27,922 bases of DNA from a virus: the IMG/VR virus record IMGVR_UViG_3300032267_000050, positions 1 to 27,922 of that record. One strand, 5' to 3'. Made by a program: the position numbers and the translations under genes. Position 1 is the first letter of the stretch, and each line of letters starts with the position of its first letter. Below the pieces are notes generated by a model. It worked only from the letters and a program-made list of their open reading frames with translations. It ran no database searches and was not told the origin of the DNA. Positions 18,137-27,126 of this stretch are shown here, piece by piece.

Positions 18137-18403
18137 ATGATGCAGACGATCCCCATCCAGTACGGAATCATCAACGGGGCGGTCTACGACTTCCCCGAAG
18201 TCGATGACGTTCTGCCTATGCACACCCACACCGATGCGGATGTACACATATCCATCGTCGCCAAGGGGAGCTTTAGGGCGCATGGGGACGGCTGGGAACG
18301 CACACTGGTGTGTGGGAATGTGGTAGACTGGCCCGCGCATTACCCGCATGAGTTTGTGGCGCTGGAGGCGGGTAGCCGCCTCGTAAACATTCGCAAAGCA
18401 TAA
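18137..18403 (+). CDS. Cupin-fold protein
   Basis: An 88-residue single-domain cupin: metal-binding type motif 1 at about residues 28-48 (MHTHTDADVHISIVAKGSFR), with His residues in an H-x-H arrangement, and motif 2 WPAHYPHEFVALEAGSRLVN. Small cupins can bind metal or sugars; the partner here is unknown. It starts one base after the preceding stop and ends the rightward virion operon just before the terminator hairpin. Its location suggests virion or host-surface glycan relation, but this is inference. Confidence 0.82.
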   Translation: MMQTIPIQYGIINGAVYDFPEVDDVLPMHTHTDADVHISIVAKGSFRAHGDGWERTLVCGNVVDWPAHYPHEFVALEAGSRLVNIRKA

Positions 18404-18433
18404 AAAACCCCGGCCTGACCGAACAGACCGGGG
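18402..18433 (-). terminator. Rho-independent terminator of the leftward operon
   Basis: CCCCGGCCTG, loop ACCGAA, CAGACCGGGG forms a 10-bp stem with one mismatch. Six A residues lie to its left (18402-18407), giving a U-tract for leftward transcripts. The rightward side has no T-run, but convergent rightward transcripts may also stop here. Confidence 0.8.
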
Positions 18434-18442
18434 CAAGTAGGT

Positions 18443-18559
18443 TCACGACAAATCATGGGGTTGGGCTACACAGGCGGCATACGCATAACCTTCGCCGCAA
18501 GTAAGCCAAAGACCATTCTTTGACTTGCCGATTATGGCAGACTCACCAGAACCATGCAA
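18443..18559 (-). CDS. Candidate 38-residue microprotein
   Basis: A short reading frame starts at TTG 18559, nine bases after a GGAG that overlaps the amber stop of the upstream gene, and ends at 18443 just before the terminator. The product contains GKSKNGLWLTCGEGYAYAAC, with a composition (Gly, aromatic, two Cys) that looks protein-like. It is in the same frame as the upstream gene, so read-through of that TAG would fuse the two. No family recognised; it could be chance. Confidence 0.4.
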   Translation of the reverse strand: MHGSGESAIIGKSKNGLWLTCGEGYAYAACVAQPHDLS

Positions 18560-18571
18560 GCCATTTGACTC

Positions 18572-18784
18572 CTACAGTTGCACAAATTCACTGCTTGTAG
18601 ACCGCCCATATGTGATATTGGTCTGGCCCCTGATGTCGGTGTTTTGCCAGCACCAGCACTGCCCATCGGCTTGAAAGACTATCCAAATCAGATCATGGTC
18701 ACTGCCATAGTCCACTAGGATGTGGGCAAGAGCTTTGCCCTTTGGGGTGACAACGGGGATCGGTGGGTTAAGCTGTAACAGCAT
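18572..18784 (-). CDS. Small conserved phage protein, function unknown
   Basis: A 70-residue protein with opening MLLQLNPPIPVVTPKGKALA, then HILVDYGSDHDLIWIVFQAD and CWCWQNTDIRGQTNITYGR. This pattern recurs in many phage small proteins of unknown function. The ATG has AAGGAAA seven bases upstream and overlaps the gcrA-like gene 3' end by 17 bases. Near the promoter-distal end of the leftward operon. Confidence 0.8.
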   Translation of the reverse strand: MLLQLNPPIPVVTPKGKALAHILVDYGSDHDLIWIVFQADGQCWCWQNTDIRGQTNITYGRSTSSEFVQL

Positions 18785-19238
18785 GTGGCTTTTCCTTTAG
18801 CTTAGAGGACGGCGTATAGCAAAGCTTGTGGTGTGTTTTGCAGTATGATGATGCGCCTTTTTGCTCACCGCAGAACAGTGCTTCATCATCTGCATTTCTG
18901 CCGATAATGTACCGGCAAGAACTTGGTTTTAGCTTCATCAGCGTGATGCCACTGGTTGGTCCGTTACTAGGTAAATCTCCACCAGCAACTGCTATGTGCA
19001 GAAAATTGCTGACTACAGATACCCTTTTGCGCTCATTGTCCGCAATCTTAGCCCTGACGGATATGATGCGTTCCGCACCCATCCGGTAGTCAATTTTACC
19101 AGAAGCCCGGCATCTGCCCAGAATACCCATAACGGTGTTTCTGGTAATGCCAAGGTTTCTAGCAATCTGACTCCCGGTTAGGCCCGATCTCCACATCTCA
19201 ACGATAGCGTCTGTATTTGGGTTTATTGGGGTTCCCAT
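18768..19238 (-). CDS. gcrA: GcrA-family transcriptional regulator
   Basis: A 156-residue GcrA-like protein. N-terminal HTH (about residues 10-45: AIVEMWRSGLTGSQIARNLG, then ITRNTVMGILGRC) matches the family's DNA-binding region. The C-terminal part (about residues 100-142: LMKLKPSSCRYIIG, EALFCGEQKG, SYCKTHHKLCYTP) matches the conserved Cys/His-containing sigma70-interacting end (Cys108, 123, 133, 140). In Caulobacter, GcrA binds RNA polymerase sigma70 and promoters with CcrM-methylated GANTC sites. Here it would redirect host RNA polymerase to phage or host promoters. Overlaps its upstream neighbour by 16 bases; ATG preceded by AGGAAA. Confidence 0.87.
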   Translation of the reverse strand: MGTPINPNTDAIVEMWRSGLTGSQIARNLGITRNTVMGILGRCRASGKIDYRMGAERIISVRAKIADNERKRVSVVSNFLHIAVAGGDLPSNGPTSGITLMKLKPSSCRYIIGRNADDEALFCGEQKGASSYCKTHHKLCYTPSSKLKEKPHAVTA

Positions 19239-19528
19239 TTGGTTTCCTGTTCGTTTTTTGGTAGTTCGCCTTTCAAGAAATAGGCGGCAATAGCCATGTA
19301 GTTAATGCCGTCTATGTAGTTGTCAAGGTGGTGCTTGCTTTCCTGCATACGACCAAGCTTGACGGCAAGCAACATCATGGCAATTTCGTAATTGCTGACG
19401 TGCTTGCCTAACATGACAGAAGCTATAGTACTGATCCTGTCAAAGTTTTCCTCTAGATGTCCATACTCCCCCCCGCGCTGGGTCATTATTTCGGCGCACT
19501 GAGCCAGCATTTCCTTGGGCGTCATCAT
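19223..19528 (-). CDS. DUF6378-like phage protein
   Basis: A 101-residue helical protein. RGGEYGHLEENFDRIS followed by ISNYEIA-like and MMLLAVKLGRMQES-KHHLDNYID-INYMAIAA pattern matches the family DUF6378 (generally Y-G-x-x-x-E-N-F ... K-x-x-R ... K-x-x-D-x-x-x-D). Members occur in phages and may be nucleotide-related (the fold resembles all-alpha NTP pyrophosphohydrolases), but function is unknown. I chose the ATG at 19528 (a second follows at 19525); the longer in-frame opening to 19570 is basic and lacks a ribosome site. The start lies inside the preceding gene. Confidence 0.75.
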   Translation of the reverse strand: MMTPKEMLAQCAEIMTQRGGEYGHLEENFDRISTIASVMLGKHVSNYEIAMMLLAVKLGRMQESKHHLDNYIDGINYMAIAAYFLKGELPKNEQETKWEPQ

Positions 19529-19787
19529 TGATCTTCTCTTCCATGTCGATAAACTCTTGGACCTTCCCAATATGGGAAGTGTTCAGGATGGTCATGCCGC
19601 GATCTTCCCAGAAGATGCTATCGTCGTAGTTCTTCCGGCGATACCATTGACGGCCCATGATGAACTCTTCACCGTTCATCAGTTCGCAAAATTCTTCTGT
19701 AGATTTGACTTCTTCAACGTCCATAGTCACATGATGGACCAAGTTGCCGGAAGTACTGGGCATATTCATCGTAATCAGGAATCTCAT
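19440..19787 (-). CDS. Hypothetical protein with long 3' overlap
   Basis: A 115-residue protein starting at ATG 19787 (GGAGA upstream, immediately after the previous stop). It begins MRFLITMNMPSTSGNLVHHV, suggesting a beta-alpha fold, then acidic residues and MGRQWYRRKNYDDSIFWEDR. The last about 30 residues (from INDDAQGN) lie in the overlap with the next gene and look low-information, so the ancestral protein may have ended near there. Family not recognised. Confidence 0.65.
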   Translation of the reverse strand: MRFLITMNMPSTSGNLVHHVTMDVEEVKSTEEFCELMNGEEFIMGRQWYRRKNYDDSIFWEDRGMTILNTSHIGKVQEFIDMEEKINDDAQGNAGSVRRNNDPARGGVWTSRGKL

Positions 19788-19788
19788 T

Positions 19789-20247
19789 TTATTCTCCTTC
19801 GATGTCAATTCTGATGAATTTGACATGTTCTATTGGGCAAGCGTAAAAGCTTTCTTCCTTGCGGGTGTTACTAGCCCATTTTTTGATTACCTTCCAATGT
19901 TGTTTTGTGTCTGGCAGTATCAGTGCCGCATGGGTCATCGCGGCGTTCAGTATAACGTAGTGCGGATCATCAGCCAATGCCCTATTTACGGCAGCTTCAT
20001 TGGAAACCAGCATATCTTCGTAAGGCCAGTCATTCGCGCATGTAAATACAACATTGCGTCCTTTGACTTCAATACGTTTCACTGGTGTGTCTGGCTTGTT
20101 GGCAAATATATCCCCCAAGTCTATAACACCCGTTTCGGCAGGAATCTTTACATCATAGCCTTTCCGGTGAAGCCACTTAGCCACAACAAAAACAGCGTGG
20201 ACGGAGTCCTTCAACCTATCTTGAAACCCCGTTTCACTGGTCGTCAT
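19789..20247 (-). CDS. PD-(D/E)XK-like nuclease candidate
   Basis: A 152-residue protein. Residues 26-63 read HRKGYDVKIPAETGVIDLGD, a short loop, and RIEVKGRN: Asp43/Asp46 followed by Glu60-x-Lys62 is the hallmark pattern of PD-(D/E)XK nucleases. The remainder has a strand-helix layout (DPHYVILNAAMTHAALILPD). The ATG at 20247 is nine bases after AAGGA and overlaps the HNH gene by 14 bases. Family fold includes resolvases, repair and restriction nucleases; no specific role is visible. A role in DNA processing during recombination or host DNA breakdown would fit the operon. Confidence 0.6.
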   Translation of the reverse strand: MTTSETGFQDRLKDSVHAVFVVAKWLHRKGYDVKIPAETGVIDLGDIFANKPDTPVKRIEVKGRNVVFTCANDWPYEDMLVSNEAAVNRALADDPHYVILNAAMTHAALILPDTKQHWKVIKKWASNTRKEESFYACPIEHVKFIRIDIEGE

Positions 20248-20596
20248 GGCCCTCATTCCTTCTGACAACAGACCCATCCATCTTCTTTTTCCACATGGAG
20301 TTTCGCCCGCCCGGCATTTGAGACTTGGGGCGCTTGGCACCGATGTGCTTTTGATGGATGCGTTTGACCTTGGCGATTAGCGGGATGTCCACTTTGCTAG
20401 TATGGGTGCGATGACACTTGCGATGAGCAACCAGCCAATTAGTATCATCGTCCTTACCGCCAGCTTCCAATGGGATTTCATGGCTAACGTCCCAATCTTC
20501 TCCCGGAACAACCTTCATGCGGCACAAATGGCAGACGCCACTATGCCGCAGAAAGATGTCAGCCCGCATCTTGGCAGTAATGCGGACCCGTTTCAT
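20234..20596 (-). CDS. HNH endonuclease
   Basis: A 120-residue protein with zinc-binding CHLC (Cys22, Cys25), the HNH core DVSHEIPLEAGGKDDDTNWL with His39 and Asn53, and AHRKCHRTHTSK supplying the last His and Cys61. It is a small nuclease of the McrA-like type; in phages such genes often act near terminase or in DNA processing. It sits between a helical unknown and the PD-(D/E)XK gene; its start overlaps the upstream stop by one base. The basic C-terminus (about residues 70-115) may bind DNA. Confidence 0.88.
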   Translation of the reverse strand: MKRVRITAKMRADIFLRHSGVCHLCRMKVVPGEDWDVSHEIPLEAGGKDDDTNWLVAHRKCHRTHTSKVDIPLIAKVKRIHQKHIGAKRPKSQMPGGRNSMWKKKMDGSVVRRNEGHDDQ

Positions 20597-20928
20597 TAGT
20601 GCTTCATCATATTCTTGTGAAACTCATCATCAAGTTCTTGGTCTTCGTCATGCTCATCCATAGCTTCTTTCATGGCATTAGCGGCCATTTGGATTCCCCA
20701 AACAAGGTTGTAAGACACAATAGCCGCATGGGAGCGGGCTTCGTTTGTGTCGTCCGAATATTCCATGATGGCATTCAGCATTGCCGTTGAAAGCGTGGAC
20801 ATTTTCATAGAGAAATCATACTTACCAATGATCTTTTCCACTTCTAGGAAAAGTTTAGATACCTCTTTGGCTTCTCCCTTTGGCATTTTGGCGATTTCGT
20901 CCTCAAATTTCTTAAATTTGTCTTTCAT
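20596..20928 (-). CDS. Helical hypothetical protein
   Basis: A 110-residue predominantly helical protein with an acidic C-terminus (EHDEDQELDDEFHKNMM). A ribosome site GGAGAT lies seven bases before the ATG. Its overall composition (Met-rich, charged) and location in the recombination operon suggest a small partner or regulator; no family recognised. Confidence 0.75.
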   Translation of the reverse strand: MKDKFKKFEDEIAKMPKGEAKEVSKLFLEVEKIIGKYDFSMKMSTLSTAMLNAIMEYSDDTNEARSHAAIVSYNLVWGIQMAANAMKEAMDEHDEDQELDDEFHKNMMKH

Positions 20929-20937
20929 GGGTATCTC

Positions 20938-21252
20938 CTATAAGCGCATTTCAGCGCGGTTGTTTGCTTCGGCGGATTGCCATTCTTGGAACCGCATTTT
21001 GATGTAGTCTACCTTGACCTTTAATAGCGCCGCTTTCTCACGCGCCGCCAACATTTTTTGCAAATGATCCATCCAAGCATCTGATGCTTTGACGTTCATT
21101 TCTGCGCGGCTTACGGCAATGTCACCGTAAGCCGCCATCATGCGAGACAGAACAGCACCCTTAGTCTCTTCCAGCAAGTTAGCAACAGAATCAGCGTCTA
21201 CCCACTCTTCTGCTGCGAGTCGGAATTGTTCTGATAAGGGCGCGTTTTCCAT
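20938..21252 (-). CDS. Conserved helical protein of recombination operon
   Basis: A 104-residue helical protein (LEETKGAVLSRMMAAYGDIA, AEMNVKASDAWMDHLQKMLA, VKVDYIKMRFQEWQSAEANN). This pattern recurs, in my recollection, beside the single-strand annealing and exonuclease genes of phages of alphaproteobacteria. A GAGGTGA ribosome site precedes the ATG. It follows the SSB-like gene in the transcript and may help the exonuclease/annealase complex, but no biochemical role is known to me. Confidence 0.8.
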   Translation of the reverse strand: MENAPLSEQFRLAAEEWVDADSVANLLEETKGAVLSRMMAAYGDIAVSRAEMNVKASDAWMDHLQKMLAAREKAALLKVKVDYIKMRFQEWQSAEANNRAEMRL

Positions 21253-21260
21253 AGTTCACC

Positions 21261-21524
21261 TCAAAAGGGAAGGTCGTCGTCCGCAAGTTCAGCGGCTGAC
21301 TGGCGGCTAGGTGCGGGCCTTCCGCCTGTAGCCATGTCTCCATCCTTGCGCGTCACGGCAAAGCTAATCCACTTTTCGTTGTTTTTGTCTACCTTGGTCC
21401 AGCCGCTCACCCAATATTCCACGCCGTCGATCATGGCGTTCCCGGTCAAGTTAGGCTGCTTGTCGGTTTCCTTGCGGGTGTTTTTGAACATAGCCCCGGT
21501 ATTGTCACGCTTTTCATATGCCAT
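21261..21524 (-). CDS. SSB-like protein with acidic DDDLPF tail
   Basis: An 87-residue protein. The N-terminal core (EKRDNTGAMFKNTRKETD, DGVEYWVSGWTKVDKNN, KWISFAVTRKDG) resembles small phage OB-fold-type DNA-binding proteins. The C-terminal segment is a disordered linker ending in LADDDLPF, which mirrors the acidic tip of bacterial single-stranded DNA-binding protein that recruits host replication and repair proteins. The start overlaps the exonuclease gene end by 11 bases. It would coat single-stranded DNA produced by the exonuclease or during replication. Confidence 0.72.
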   Translation of the reverse strand: MAYEKRDNTGAMFKNTRKETDKQPNLTGNAMIDGVEYWVSGWTKVDKNNEKWISFAVTRKDGDMATGGRPAPSRQSAAELADDDLPF

Positions 21525-22149
21525 TGTCTTCCCCTTCCACGTTGAAAGCTGCGTCCAGCAGAGCGATCTTGTCGCCCATCTCTTTAAGGAAAAGGTTTAC
21601 TTCCTTCTCCAGATTCGCAATCATAGCGTCATCGCGCGGAACCCGTTGAATGAAGATTTGCATCTTCTCAGGCAAGCGCGGGTCGTATGATATGAAGTCA
21701 CACCACTGACGGCCTGTGCAAGCCATCTGCCACTGCATTTGCGTGACGTATTTGGCTGGTGGAATACTAGCCAGAACCGTGTCCAAATGGGTGGACGTGT
21801 TTGGGCACTTGATTTCAATCAAGCCGTCATGGTCCACAAGCCCGTCAGGACTAGCGCCAGCGGCTTCGATAGTAGGGTGGGGGACAAACCCAACCCCCTC
21901 CACCAAATTGCCGGTCTTGGCCTCATAAGCCAGCGCCGCCATTGGTTCGGTGTTCGTCCCCCACGCCATTGCGGCAGTCATAAACAGGATGGTACGTTTT
22001 CCTGTCAGACGCTCGCAAAGCAATTCGTTCATGTAGTTGTCACGGCTGCTGCTATAGCCACTCTTTGTCTTGGCGATAATGTCAGCCACGCGGGACGCAG
22101 TTACGCGCCCCAGCCTAGCCGCAAACCATTCATCACTGCGCTGTTCCAT
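21514..22149 (-). CDS. YqaJ-type viral recombinase exonuclease (lambda exo-like)
   Basis: A 211-residue protein of the lambda exonuclease/YqaJ family. It has the N-terminal QRSDEWFAARLGRVTAS motif, a MAWGTNTEPMAALAYE helix with a conserved Glu, the catalytic block GASPDGLV then LIEIKCP (Asp102, Glu112, Lys114), and YVTQMQWQMACTG. It resects one DNA strand to give 3' single-stranded tails used by the annealase. I chose ATG 22149, seven bases after AAGGAAA, which overlaps the annealase stop (TGATG); a GTG three bases upstream is also possible. Directly follows the ERF gene. Confidence 0.93.
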   Translation of the reverse strand: MEQRSDEWFAARLGRVTASRVADIIAKTKSGYSSSRDNYMNELLCERLTGKRTILFMTAAMAWGTNTEPMAALAYEAKTGNLVEGVGFVPHPTIEAAGASPDGLVDHDGLIEIKCPNTSTHLDTVLASIPPAKYVTQMQWQMACTGRQWCDFISYDPRLPEKMQIFIQRVPRDDAMIANLEKEVNLFLKEMGDKIALLDAAFNVEGEDNGI

Positions 22150-22733
22150 CACTTGGTTTCCTTCTTTGGATCAGATTGGGCGGCAAGAGCCTTCAATTCA
22201 GCGATAGCTTCTACATCAAACACTTTCCTTTGGTCTTGTGTCAAGCCCTTCCAAAACTCACCAAGGGCGGCAGTTCCCTTCTCCGCAACCTTGATTGCTT
22301 TCAAACCCAATGCGCGTTCTGCGGAACTGGGCTCCTTTGGCGGCTGTGCGGCTTGTGCAGCGTTGCCATCATCATCGTCCGCAGCAAGATTTGCAATGGA
22401 CATAAGGGCATATCGGCGGGCATAGGAAATACCGGAGCCAATCGGATGTATTTCGGACTTGACGGGCAGGAACAAGGTTTCAGCCATGAACTCACCAGAT
22501 GAGTGCATGAGCATGGTTTCAACCTCAATGCCACCCTGAACGGTGCGGGGAAACTGAACAACGGACAAGCCGTTGTCAGCAAATGGCTTACGGATTGCCG
22601 CACGAACGGACGACAAGTCAGCGTATTTCGCCTTGTAGAAGTCGTTCTTACGATCCTTCACAGCGTCGTCAATCTGGCCCTGTGCGATGGATAGGGCGGT
22701 CGAAAGCTGGTTGATGGTGTCTGACATTTTCAT
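22149..22733 (-). CDS. ERF-family single-strand annealing protein
   Basis: A 194-residue ERF superfamily recombinase. The motif FYKAKYADLSSVRAAIRKPF (about residues 32-51), followed by NGLSVVQFP, is diagnostic, and PIGSGISYARRYALMSIANL with the acidic ADDDDGN loop completes the core. The C-terminal part is a charged helical region (KGLTQDQRKVFDVEAIAELK). It anneals complementary single strands, pairing with the exonuclease and SSB-like protein in a Red/Erf-type recombination system. The ATG is preceded by AAAGGAC, with spacing of about six bases. Confidence 0.93.
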   Translation of the reverse strand: MKMSDTINQLSTALSIAQGQIDDAVKDRKNDFYKAKYADLSSVRAAIRKPFADNGLSVVQFPRTVQGGIEVETMLMHSSGEFMAETLFLPVKSEIHPIGSGISYARRYALMSIANLAADDDDGNAAQAAQPPKEPSSAERALGLKAIKVAEKGTAALGEFWKGLTQDQRKVFDVEAIAELKALAAQSDPKKETK

Positions 22734-22744
22734 TGGGTTGTCCT

Positions 22745-23098
22745 TTAGTATTCGCCATCACGGCGGGCTTGCAGTCTAAAGTCGGCAGCGTCGTCTTCCG
22801 CCGCCCACATACCTTCGCGGGCGCAGTCGTCGAAGATGTCGTTCATAAGCTTTTCATCGCGGTTTAGCATGGTCCACACGGCACATGCAATCGGGTCGTT
22901 GTCCTTGCCCTTTTCGAAAATCACTTCGGTGCGCTCTTCATTTTCTTCGCCAAGGTTCACTACACGAACCAGTTCGAAAGAGTCAATGAAAGGCATATCG
23001 TCCACATGGTCGATGAGAACGTCAAGTTTGCCGTACAGATAAGTGTCGGGGGTGAGCGGGTGTTCGTCTAAGGTGTATTGGATTGGGCTAAGGTTCAT
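22745..23098 (-). CDS. First gene of leftward operon, acidic protein of unknown function
   Basis: A 117-residue strongly acidic protein (VNLGEENEERTEVIFEKGKD; DIFDDCAREGMWAAEDDAAD). Start ATG 23098 lies five bases after GGAGAG and about 20 bases from the predicted start of transcription. As the first product of the leftward early transcript it may be a host-interaction or DNA-mimic-like protein, but the charge alone does not prove that. Family not recognised. Confidence 0.75.
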   Translation of the reverse strand: MNLSPIQYTLDEHPLTPDTYLYGKLDVLIDHVDDMPFIDSFELVRVVNLGEENEERTEVIFEKGKDNDPIACAVWTMLNRDEKLMNDIFDDCAREGMWAAEDDAADFRLQARRDGEY

Positions 23099-23125
23099 TT
23101 CTCTCTCCTGTGGTAGGATGTCCAA

Positions 23126-23153
23126 AACATACCAGAACCTGATTTGGAGTCAA
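23126..23153 (-). promoter_or_regulatory. Leftward early promoter
   Basis: Reading leftward, -35 TTGACT (complement of 23148-23153), 16-base spacer, -10 TATGTT (complement of 23126-23131). A GAGTC (GANTC) site at 23147-23151 overlaps the -35. Confidence 0.7.
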
Positions 23154-23178
23154 CCCCTCTTGACGAAGAATCTGGTTC
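23135..23178. promoter_or_regulatory. 44-bp imperfect palindrome joining divergent promoters, candidate operator
   Basis: Dyad centred at 23156.5. Left arm GAACC-T-GATT, four bases, GTCAA; right arm TTGAC, four bases, AATC-T-GGTTC. GAACC, GATT and GTCAA match exactly on both sides. The outer half-sites fall in the spacer of each promoter, the inner ones are the -35 elements. Could bind a dimeric regulator; the 60-residue HTH protein at 25032 and the GcrA homologue are candidates. Confidence 0.6.
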
Positions 23179-23188
23179 GACGCATAAT
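23160..23188 (+). promoter_or_regulatory. Rightward early promoter
   Basis: -35 TTGACG (23160-23165), 17-base spacer, -10 CATAAT (23183-23188), five of six consensus bases in each. Predicted transcription start 23194-23197 coincides with the rusA ATG at 23195. A GAATC (GANTC) site lies at 23168-23172 in the spacer. Confidence 0.75.
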
Positions 23189-23194
23189 GCGCCC

Positions 23195-23554
23195 ATGATC
23201 GAACTGTCCATTCCGTTCCCCCCTAGCGTCAACCGTCTCTGGAGGGCCACAAAGACTGGTAAGGTGTATCGGTCAAAGGAATATGTAGATTGGACAAAGG
23301 AAACCCTATGGGAAATCAAGGAACAAGCCAAGCGGCGGCGCATATCTGGTCAGTACAAACTCACCATTGAAGCCGTCAGGCCAGACAGACGTAAACGTGA
23401 CATTGGAAACTTAGAGAAGGCAATCAACGACGCGCTGGTTCATTCGGGGATTGTGGACGACGATCATCTGTGCGAATGGATCGTGGCAAAGTGGGTGCCA
23501 GAAGGACCGCCATGTTTGATAACTTTGGAAGCTATCCCACCTACTTCAGCCTAA
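23195..23554 (+). CDS. rusA: RusA-family Holliday junction resolvase
   Basis: A 119-residue RusA-like protein: IELSIPFPPSVNRLWRAT, YRSKEYVDWTKE and the catalytic region RPDRRKRDIGNLEKAINDAL, then GIVDDDHLCEWIV. Conserved acidic residues are Asp69, Asp79 and Asp88-90. The DxD of E. coli RusA (Asp70/Asp72) reads DIG here, so the second Asp is replaced, as I recall for some phage relatives. RusA cuts Holliday junctions, resolving branched DNA during replication or recombination. No ribosome site precedes the ATG; the promoter predicts a leaderless mRNA. An in-frame TTG at 23144 lies inside the promoter region and is rejected. Confidence 0.9.
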   Translation: MIELSIPFPPSVNRLWRATKTGKVYRSKEYVDWTKETLWEIKEQAKRRRISGQYKLTIEAVRPDRRKRDIGNLEKAINDALVHSGIVDDDHLCEWIVAKWVPEGPPCLITLEAIPPTSA

Positions 23555-23763
23555 CATACCGCCTTCTGCGGATAGGTCACAATCTAAAACGTAAAGTTAC
23601 AATTCGTGATCGCAAAACCGCACAGGAAGCCGCAGCTTACATCATGAAGCTTGAACGGGCATTGGAAGACATTTCCAGATTGCCCTTAGCAGACGCGCAT
23701 CTTGGATTAGAAATTGCCACACAGGTCTTGGGGGATGATGATGGGCAAGAGGTCGAACTTTGA
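23512..23763 (+). CDS. Small hypothetical protein overlapping rusA
   Basis: An 83-residue protein started at ATG 23512 because AGAAGGA lies five bases upstream; this overlaps rusA by 43 bases. Its C-terminal half (RKTAQEAAAYIMKLERALED, then AHLGLEIATQVLGDDDG) is helical and acidic. An in-frame ATG at 23470 has no ribosome site. Family not recognised; it also overlaps the methyltransferase gene start. Confidence 0.6.
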   Translation: MFDNFGSYPTYFSLTYRLLRIGHNLKRKVTIRDRKTAQEAAAYIMKLERALEDISRLPLADAHLGLEIATQVLGDDDGQEVEL

Positions 23764-24274
23764 ACGCATGGAGCGGGACTTCTACCCCACTCCTTTGGCT
23801 GCGGTAACGCCACTGGTGAGTCATTTACCAATGGGCGCGCGTTATTGCGAACCCTGTGCTGGCGCTGGTGATCTGATTCGTAGCCTTAAATTTTTGGGCT
23901 ATGAGTGTACATCAGCGTTTGACATAGAGCCAATGGCTGATGGCATTTGGCAGCATGACGCCACACAGATCACGTTAGATGACTTGCAGGGTGCTGATTA
24001 CATTGTTACCAACCCGCCTTGGGATAGGCCCGTGCTGCATCAAATCATAGAACGATGCAGCATTTTGAAGCCTACATGGCTGTTATTCGATGCCGATTGG
24101 GCGCACACCCGTCAATCATCGGTTTACATGGAGTATTGCCACGCTGTAGTTTCTATAGGGCGTGTCAAATGGATTGAAGGCAGCGCCAGCGTTGGTAAGG
24201 ACAACTGCGCTTGGTATCTGTTCGATAACACAAGGCCGCGCCTATCAACTGTATTTTATGGAAGGAGTGCATAA
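23741..24274 (+). CDS. SAM-dependent DNA methyltransferase-like protein (NPPW motif)
   Basis: A 177-residue class I methyltransferase. The N-terminus RDFYPTPLAAVTPLVSHLP precedes the SAM-binding motif I YCEPCAGAGDL (about residues 35-45) and motif IV TNPPW (91-94), typical of N6-adenine/N4-cytosine enzymes. Downstream, WLLFDADWAHTRQSS and RVKWIEGSASVGKDNCAWYL are conserved in phage relatives. It is short and lacks an obvious target-recognition domain. Function may be methylation of phage DNA to evade restriction; the target sequence cannot be read. ATGs at 23735, 23738 and 23741 all follow GGGGG; the last gives MGKRSNFER. Confidence 0.83.
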   Translation: MGKRSNFERMERDFYPTPLAAVTPLVSHLPMGARYCEPCAGAGDLIRSLKFLGYECTSAFDIEPMADGIWQHDATQITLDDLQGADYIVTNPPWDRPVLHQIIERCSILKPTWLLFDADWAHTRQSSVYMEYCHAVVSIGRVKWIEGSASVGKDNCAWYLFDNTRPRLSTVFYGRSA

Positions 24275-25650: not shown

Positions 25651-27126
25651 ATGGAACTCAGGGACTACCAAACAGACGTTATCGACAAAATCCGTGAAGC
25701 ATTGGCGAATGGCTACCGTAGGCCGGTCGTTCAGGCCCCTACCGGCAGCGGCAAGACGGTCATCGCCGCTGCGCTGGTCAACATGGCCCGCCAGAAGGGT
25801 AAGCGGGTGATGTTCGTCGTTCCGGCTCTCAGCTTGATTGACCAGACTGTGGAAAGGTTTCGACAGAACGGAATCTTCGATCTTGGCGTAATCCAAGCCA
25901 GCCACGAAATGACTGACATCAGCCAACCTGTTCAAGTGTGTTCGGTGCAGACTTTGACCCGCCGCAATCTGCCAAAAGCTGATTTGGTCATCGTCGATGA
26001 GTGCCATGTTGGGTTTAGCCTGTACGAACGCTGGATGCAGCTTCCTGAATGGGAGAACGTGCCATTCATTGGTTTGACAGCAACTCCTTGGGCTAGGGGC
26101 ATGGGCGCTCCCGGCAAATGGGATCACCTGATCGTCGGTATAACCACTGGTGAGTTAATCGACAGGAAGGCTCTATCTTCCTTCAAAGTGTTTGCCCCGG
26201 CACATCCTAACTTGAAAGGCGTCAGGATGGTGGCTGGCGACTTCGACTTGAAGGGATTGGGCCACGCAATGGACAAGGGCCATCTGGTCGCTGACATTGT
26301 TTCGACTTGGCTAGAACGTGGCAACAGTGAGCCTACAATATGTTTTGCTGTTAACAGGGTACATGCCAAGCACATCCAGCAGCAGTTCCTTGATGCCAAA
26401 GTGCCAGCAGAATACATGGACGCTTACACTGATCTTCCTGCCCGGCGGGAGATTGTAGACAAGTTTGCAAAGGGCGAAGTGAAGATCATCTGCAATGTGG
26501 GCGTACTCACCACAGGGTTTGACGCTGACGTTCGGTGCATCATTCTGGCCCGCCCTACCAAGTCTGAGATTTTGTATACACAAATGATCGGCAGGGGATT
26601 GCGGACTGCGGAAGGCAAGGAGTCATGCATCATCTTGGATCACTCCAGTACTACGCTTAACCTTGGCTTTGTCACTGACATCCATCATGACAAGCTTGAT
26701 GATGGGAAGGCCAAGAGGGTCGAAGGTGCCCCGAAAGAGAAGCTGCCAAAGGAATGTTCCAAGTGCCACTTCCTAAAGCCGCCAAAGGTACTGGATTGTC
26801 CCGCCTGTGGACACCGCCCAACCCCCCAAGACAAGGTACAAGTAGAAAGCGGAGAGTTATACGAACTTGCCAGTAGGCATTCTGCCAAGCCAGATCAGAA
26901 GCCAACCGCTGATGGTCAAAGATGGTACGCGCAACTGATCCTTTATGCAAATCTTCGTGGCTATAAGGCAGGCTGGGCTTATTGGGCATATCAAGACAAA
27001 TTCAAATCAAAGCCACCGCGACATTTTTCCGGTGAACCCGCTAGACAAATGACTCCAGAAGTGGAATCATGGATTCGTCACCGCAACATTCGCAAAGCCA
27101 AATCCAACGACAGGAGATCAGCGTGA
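25651..27126 (+). CDS. SF2 helicase (RadD/YejH-like) with zinc-binding motif
   Basis: A 491-residue superfamily 2 helicase: Walker A APTGSGKT (29-36), DECH box (116-119), motif III GLTATPW (141-147), and QMIGRGLR motif VI (311-318). A C-terminal CSKC...CPAC pair (Cys369, 372, 383, 386) is a predicted zinc ribbon, as in RadD-like proteins. These enzymes use ATP to remodel branched DNA or protein-DNA complexes. It lies just after the candidate origin, so replication fork or recombination roles are plausible; a hexameric replicative helicase is not seen in the window. The ATG follows AGGAAC; the end overlaps the next gene (GTGA). Confidence 0.92.
   Translation: MELRDYQTDVIDKIREALANGYRRPVVQAPTGSGKTVIAAALVNMARQKGKRVMFVVPALSLIDQTVERFRQNGIFDLGVIQASHEMTDISQPVQVCSVQTLTRRNLPKADLVIVDECHVGFSLYERWMQLPEWENVPFIGLTATPWARGMGAPGKWDHLIVGITTGELIDRKALSSFKVFAPAHPNLKGVRMVAGDFDLKGLGHAMDKGHLVADIVSTWLERGNSEPTICFAVNRVHAKHIQQQFLDAKVPAEYMDAYTDLPARREIVDKFAKGEVKIICNVGVLTTGFDADVRCIILARPTKSEILYTQMIGRGLRTAEGKESCIILDHSSTTLNLGFVTDIHHDKLDDGKAKRVEGAPKEKLPKECSKCHFLKPPKVLDCPACGHRPTPQDKVQVESGELYELASRHSAKPDQKPTADGQRWYAQLILYANLRGYKAGWAYWAYQDKFKSKPPRHFSGEPARQMTPEVESWIRHRNIRKAKSNDRRSA

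Follow-up and report, generated by a model that had tools for sequence, protein, structure and literature searches.

Conserved GANTC sites in the face-to-face early promoters of some gcrA-bearing phages suggest a response to host DNA methylation

Our analysis showed that the two face-to-face early promoters of a gcrA-bearing phage carry one GANTC site each. These sites, and a further one in a sister type of promoter, are very probably kept by selection. Such conservation suggests that the phage reads the methylation of the host DNA to time the expression of its first genes. The window, i.e. the whole stretch of DNA that was analysed, is an IMG/VR virus record of 27,922 bases, probably from a freshwater phage with an alphaproteobacterial host. 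A first-pass annotation had proposed that both early promoters contain GANTC, which we confirmed with both promoters recovered in a consensus scan. The elements of the divergent gap and the genes on its two sides are the following:

23126–23153, minus strand: leftward early promoter TTGACT-16-TATGTT, found by consensus scan, with homologous leftward promoters in related loci.
23147–23151, plus strand: GAGTC (GACTC on the minus strand), overlapping the leftward −35 (TTGACTC), at about −32 to −28 of the leftward start.
23160–23188, plus strand: rightward early promoter TTGACG-17-CATAAT, found by consensus scan.
23168–23172, plus strand: GAATC in the rightward spacer, two bases behind the −35, at about −27 to −23.
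22745–23098, minus strand: gene of 117 aa that opens the leftward operon, from a family without Pfam or PHROG match.
22149–22733, minus strand: Erf-like single-strand annealing protein (PF04404).
21514–22152, minus strand: YqaJ-like exonuclease (PF09588).
18768–19238, minus strand: gcrA homologue of 156 aa (PF07750), on the strand and in the operon of the leftward promoter.
23195–23554, plus strand: RusA-like Holliday junction resolvase (PF05866), first rightward gene.

The gap spans 96 bp, from the ATG of the 117-aa leftward gene (23098) to that of rusA (23195). The leftward promoter is the predicted promoter of a recombination and gcrA operon, which starts with the 117-aa gene (at 23098), continues with the Erf and YqaJ genes, and includes gcrA. 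Promoter registers are counted from predicted, unmapped starts placed seven bases after the −10. Both sites lie within −40 to +40 of these starts, the interval in which GcrA/CcrM-dependent promoters are expected to carry the motif, and their registers agree with the earlier estimate of about −23 to −32. The distance of 17 bases given with that estimate does not hold: 16 bases separate the sites and their starts are 21 apart. At least three of the five bases of the leftward site are explained by the −35, because the two overlap, and neither gap site matches the extended motif YGAKTCK (A-GAATC-T and T-GACTC-C). On the rightward side, the predicted start is the A of the rusA ATG and the −10 ends six bases before this codon, so that the rusA mRNA is predicted to be leaderless; the spacing between −10 and ATG (23188–23195) is preserved in close relatives.

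The presence of two GANTC in the gap is by itself weak evidence, because the pair is only mildly unusual; it is its conservation that makes it significant. The Poisson probability of at least two sites in 96 bp, before correction for the choice of the region, is about 0.01 if the observed density is used and 0.03 with that of dinucleotide shuffles. The window is poor in GANTC, with 39 occurrences against 80.6 ± 8.6 in these shuffles, and the chance frequency of about one per 256 bases assumed by the first-pass annotation has to be set against an actual one per 716 bases. Coding genes contain 35 GANTC when 56.9 ± 6.3 are expected from shuffling synonymous codons (z −3.5), but this avoidance is not specific, since CTNAG is avoided even more in the same genes (36 vs 73.8 expected). 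Among all gcrA phages, GANTC is modestly enriched between genes (2.13/kb vs 1.48/kb within genes), which resembles the genomes of CcrM-bearing bacteria, where the motif is depleted overall and relatively richer between genes (PMC3973325). An over-use of TTGACTC as −35 (9/156 vs 30/1394) was too weak to be claimed, and a scan of the collection with the 14-mer CTTGACGAAGAATC was of no use, swamped as it was by chance matches. The 3′ end of the helicase gene also holds three GANTC within 26 bp (27051–27076), kept in three relatives, which is uninformative because the stretch is highly similar anyway.

Conservation was assessed in the window group, which includes the window and four gcrA-bearing IMG/VR contigs (G001–G004, 80–97% DNA identity to the window), aligned over positions 18400–24262 (5.9 kb). 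Both promoter sites (23147 and 23168) are intact in all four relatives. Across the five genomes there are 31 GANTC columns, only five of which are kept in every genome (18540, 18567, 22980, 23147 and 23168): these are four of the five intergenic columns and one of the 26 coding ones (Fisher p = 0.00077). The only coding site kept in the aligned region (22980–22984, plus strand) is probably held by the protein sequence. Overall invariance is equal in the two classes of column (0.681 intergenic, 0.682 coding), and none of seven control palindromes of the same composition shows intergenic-only retention.

The other two conserved intergenic sites belong to a second locus, directly downstream of the gcrA operon:

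18403–18527, minus strand: candidate structured small RNA of about 125 nt with an intrinsic terminator.
18531–18559, minus strand: predicted small-RNA promoter TTGCAT-17-CATAAT.
18540–18544, plus strand: GACTC in the spacer of this promoter (TGAGTCT on the minus strand), with GANTC kept in five of five genomes.
18567–18571, plus strand: another GANTC, ahead of the small-RNA promoter and likewise kept in all five genomes.

At the 18540 site the N differs between close relatives while GANTC is retained. The RNA has a 5′ hairpin with compensatory changes; 19 sequences together give eight pairs with such changes, and none of 500 shuffles reaches the covariation observed. Its covariance model scores 123.6 bits in the window and has 27 matches in 76 sources, counting the window and with some sources overlapping; no Rfam family matched positions 18403–18527. 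It closes the gcrA operon in many related phages, and examples outside the window include L046 (10712–10835), L066 (11199–11323), L240 (10057–10183) and L277 (7986–8108). The 80 bases around the small-RNA start contain 14 GANTC in 1,520 bases over 19 sequences (9.2/kb), seven of them supplied by the window group. The predicted small-RNA start falls on a GANTC or closely behind one in L240, L241, L243, L246, L265 and L059, the motif being GAGTC or GATTC depending on the lineage.

A search with the family of the 117-aa gene returned 38 loci and revealed a sister type of promoter, in which the leftward promoter reads TTGACA-N-GAATC. This type accounts for 19 of the 38 loci, with the GAATC invariant in all 19 despite upstream identities of 63–99% (median 76%). 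The site sits one base behind the leftward −35, and the next eight columns of the spacer vary. Over an alignment of 1.1 kb, the promoter site is the only one of 13 GANTC columns present in 19/19, the other 12 being present in one to three of the 19. It occupies about −28 to −24, and 18 of the 19 loci match YGAKTCG; gcrA belongs to the operon under this promoter. The leftward promoters of L240–L268 have a perfect −35, a 17-bp spacer and a non-canonical, conserved −10 (mostly GAGAAA). A −10 as poor as that of the sister type is what an activator-dependent promoter would be expected to have.

GANTC promoters are a property of some lineages, namely the window group and this one sister type, and not of all gcrA phages. 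Many other relatives have the same gene order, face-to-face −35 boxes and gcrA, with no GANTC in the divergent promoter; a contig binned with a metagenome-assembled genome (MAG) of Beijerinckiaceae is among them. We therefore rejected the idea that carriage of gcrA predicts GANTC in the divergent promoter. Conservation in related gcrA-bearing phages, which the first-pass annotation had put forward as a check, therefore gives a mixed picture, with GANTC kept in the window group (5/5) and the sister type (19/19) and absent from many other relatives. The protein tree and the promoter types are discordant at several supported forks, so the promoter module seems to have been exchanged. In some 20 gcrA-bearing lineages, mostly seven to eight bases separate the face-to-face −35 boxes as judged by eye; two polymerases could hardly bind together at this distance, which would make the arrangement a built-in either/or switch.

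The phage encodes a GcrA homologue, as the first-pass annotation had it. The protein scores 66.1 bits against PF07750 (cut-off 26.9), covering positions 8–151 of the 155 of the profile, and its best solved relative by sequence is the GcrA of Caulobacter. The top three PDB matches of its predicted fold are also Caulobacter GcrA, with a TMt of 0.77 for the sigma-interacting domain, at a modest model confidence (pLDDT 70) and with no E-value under 0.001. It retains the TRN-V recognition helix and the sigma-interacting domain. Its score of 52 bits is far short of the 280 required by the NCBIfam equivalog model, which indicates a divergent phage member of the family. A methyltransferase-like protein had been reported as well:

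23741–24274, plus strand: methyltransferase-like protein matching PHROG 799 (phage methyltransferase), not of the CcrM type.

No Pfam or NCBIfam model matches the protein, and we rejected it as a CcrM, which would have N6_N4_Mtase and RAMA matches. The 15 related phage records tested yielded no RAMA protein of the CcrM type either, so that the host would have to supply the methylation.

The host can be approached through one related phage contig, sharing early and structural genes, that was binned in a Beijerinckiaceae MAG. The link hints at a host without assigning one. The MAG (about 2 Mb, completeness not given) has a cellular GcrA and no match to RAMA or N6_N4_Mtase; a RAMA protein is present in 57 of 60 Beijerinckiaceae genomes. 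A host CcrM is deduced only from the binned contig and from these genomes of the family. The G016 contigs C17 and C18 (L277 and L276) are two different gcrA-bearing phage contigs in one Beijerinckiaceae MAG with a cellular gcrA.

The best explanation of the conserved GANTC is that the early promoters respond to GcrA and CcrM, a proposal to which we give about an even chance of being right. Host CcrM would methylate GANTC in both face-to-face sigma-70-type promoters, and host GcrA, later also phage GcrA, would recruit sigma-70 RNA polymerase to them or activate it, so that early transcription would follow the methylation and GcrA state of the cell. With gcrA in the leftward operon, phage GcrA would act back on the promoter of its own gene. 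What was computed comprises the sites and their position relative to predicted starts, the selective conservation, and the presence of a GcrA homologue encoded in the operon; that the sites are methylated and bound by GcrA, that this activates rather than represses, and that it follows the cell cycle is inferred. Consistent with the proposal are the conservation in the window group and in the sister type, the Caulobacter-like register, the match to YGAKTCG, the membership of the phage protein in the GcrA family, the distribution of GANTC, and the GcrA-dependent prophage operon of Brevundimonas (PMC7987155). Against it count the gcrA-bearing relatives without GANTC, the departure of the window sites from the extended motif, the overlap with the −35, the avoidance of CTNAG, the lack of positional asymmetry of GcrA sites in a published scan of phage genomes (PMC9437464), and the MAG without RAMA.

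The main rival, which we consider rather unlikely, is that the GANTC bases belong to the operator of a phage repressor, a Cro-like helix-turn-helix (HTH) protein, or to an extended −35 and resemble the CcrM site only by coincidence. Most related phages do have a Cro-like HTH gene in first rightward position, the discordance between promoter types and protein tree looks as if promoter and regulator moved as a module, and the GAATC of the sister type never varies at the N. Yet within the sister type GAATC is constant although the HTH proteins vary around their recognition helix, and proteins with similar helices are also found in lineages without GANTC. Moreover, the window group has rusA in place of an HTH gene at the rightward promoter and still keeps both sites, and the small-RNA promoter keeps GANTC while its N varies. 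It is quite improbable that CcrM methylation itself changes promoter strength or repressor binding, without GcrA. The GACTC of the window group overlaps the −35 hexamer, and promoters with GANTC within the −35 to −10 interval are reported to differ in cell-cycle profile from those with it elsewhere (PMC4287350), but the register and extended motif of the sister type fit activation by GcrA better, and gcrA lies in the controlled operon. Finally, a pair arising by chance and kept by shared ancestry because the whole promoter changes slowly is very unlikely: the window group has only five genomes and two GANTC in 96 bp are expected at the 1–3% level, but intergenic and coding columns are equally conserved and yet only intergenic GANTC columns are kept, and the sister type shows a separate conservation in 19/19.

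GcrA- and CcrM-responsive early promoters would have precedents in a GcrA-dependent prophage operon, CtrA-controlled phage promoters, and the gcrA of phiCbK. The closest likeness is with Caulobacter crescentus, where GANTC lies at about −24 to −29 of sigma-70 promoters (−28/−29 in ctrA P1 and −24 in podJ P2, PMC4287350). The sister type, unlike the window sites, also shares YGAKTCG, which has been proposed as the motif of Caulobacter promoters activated by GcrA (PMC7987155); the extended preference, YGAKTCK, is that of Caulobacter and is not found in Brevundimonas. The promoters described here differ in being predicted early promoters of phages on metagenomic contigs. In Brevundimonas subvibrioides, a 26-gene prophage operon was measured to be GcrA-dependent (PMC7987155). 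It likewise places phage genes under apparent GcrA control, here predicted, and differs in that it encodes structural genes of a prophage thought to be non-functional (PMC7987155). Phage phiCbK and other alphaproteobacterial phages have CtrA-controlled promoters, and a scan of phage genomes found no positional asymmetry of GcrA sites (PMC9437464). These phages also read a host cell-cycle regulator, as we propose here, though a different one. The gp222 of phiCbK is a gcrA homologue, so that phage-borne gcrA is common to both, but phiCbK is an unrelated large siphophage, and GANTC is not mentioned in its description (PMC3556154). Among the papers searched, some report phages that read CtrA, and none reports conserved CcrM/GcrA sites in an early promoter of a phage. 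Host DNA methylation is known to act on phage promoters in the Dam-regulated Mu mom and P1 genes, which differ by relying on Dam and GATC, in enterobacteria, and on other regulators.

A broader reading is possible, if doubtful: a family of freshwater alphaproteobacterial phages may use the CcrM methylation of the host to time its early switch. In the face-to-face early promoters, methylated GANTC would tentatively be read by host GcrA and then by phage GcrA from the same operon, in a feed-forward loop. Just as speculatively, the small RNA under GANTC promoters would be a further output of the switch, and lineages may have rewired the site among leftward, rightward and small-RNA promoters. If phage early promoters do respond to CcrM and GcrA, promoters with and without the site would provide a natural set for studying the effect of GcrA and methylation on promoter strength, and there would be a reason for the carriage of gcrA by many alphaproteobacterial phages.
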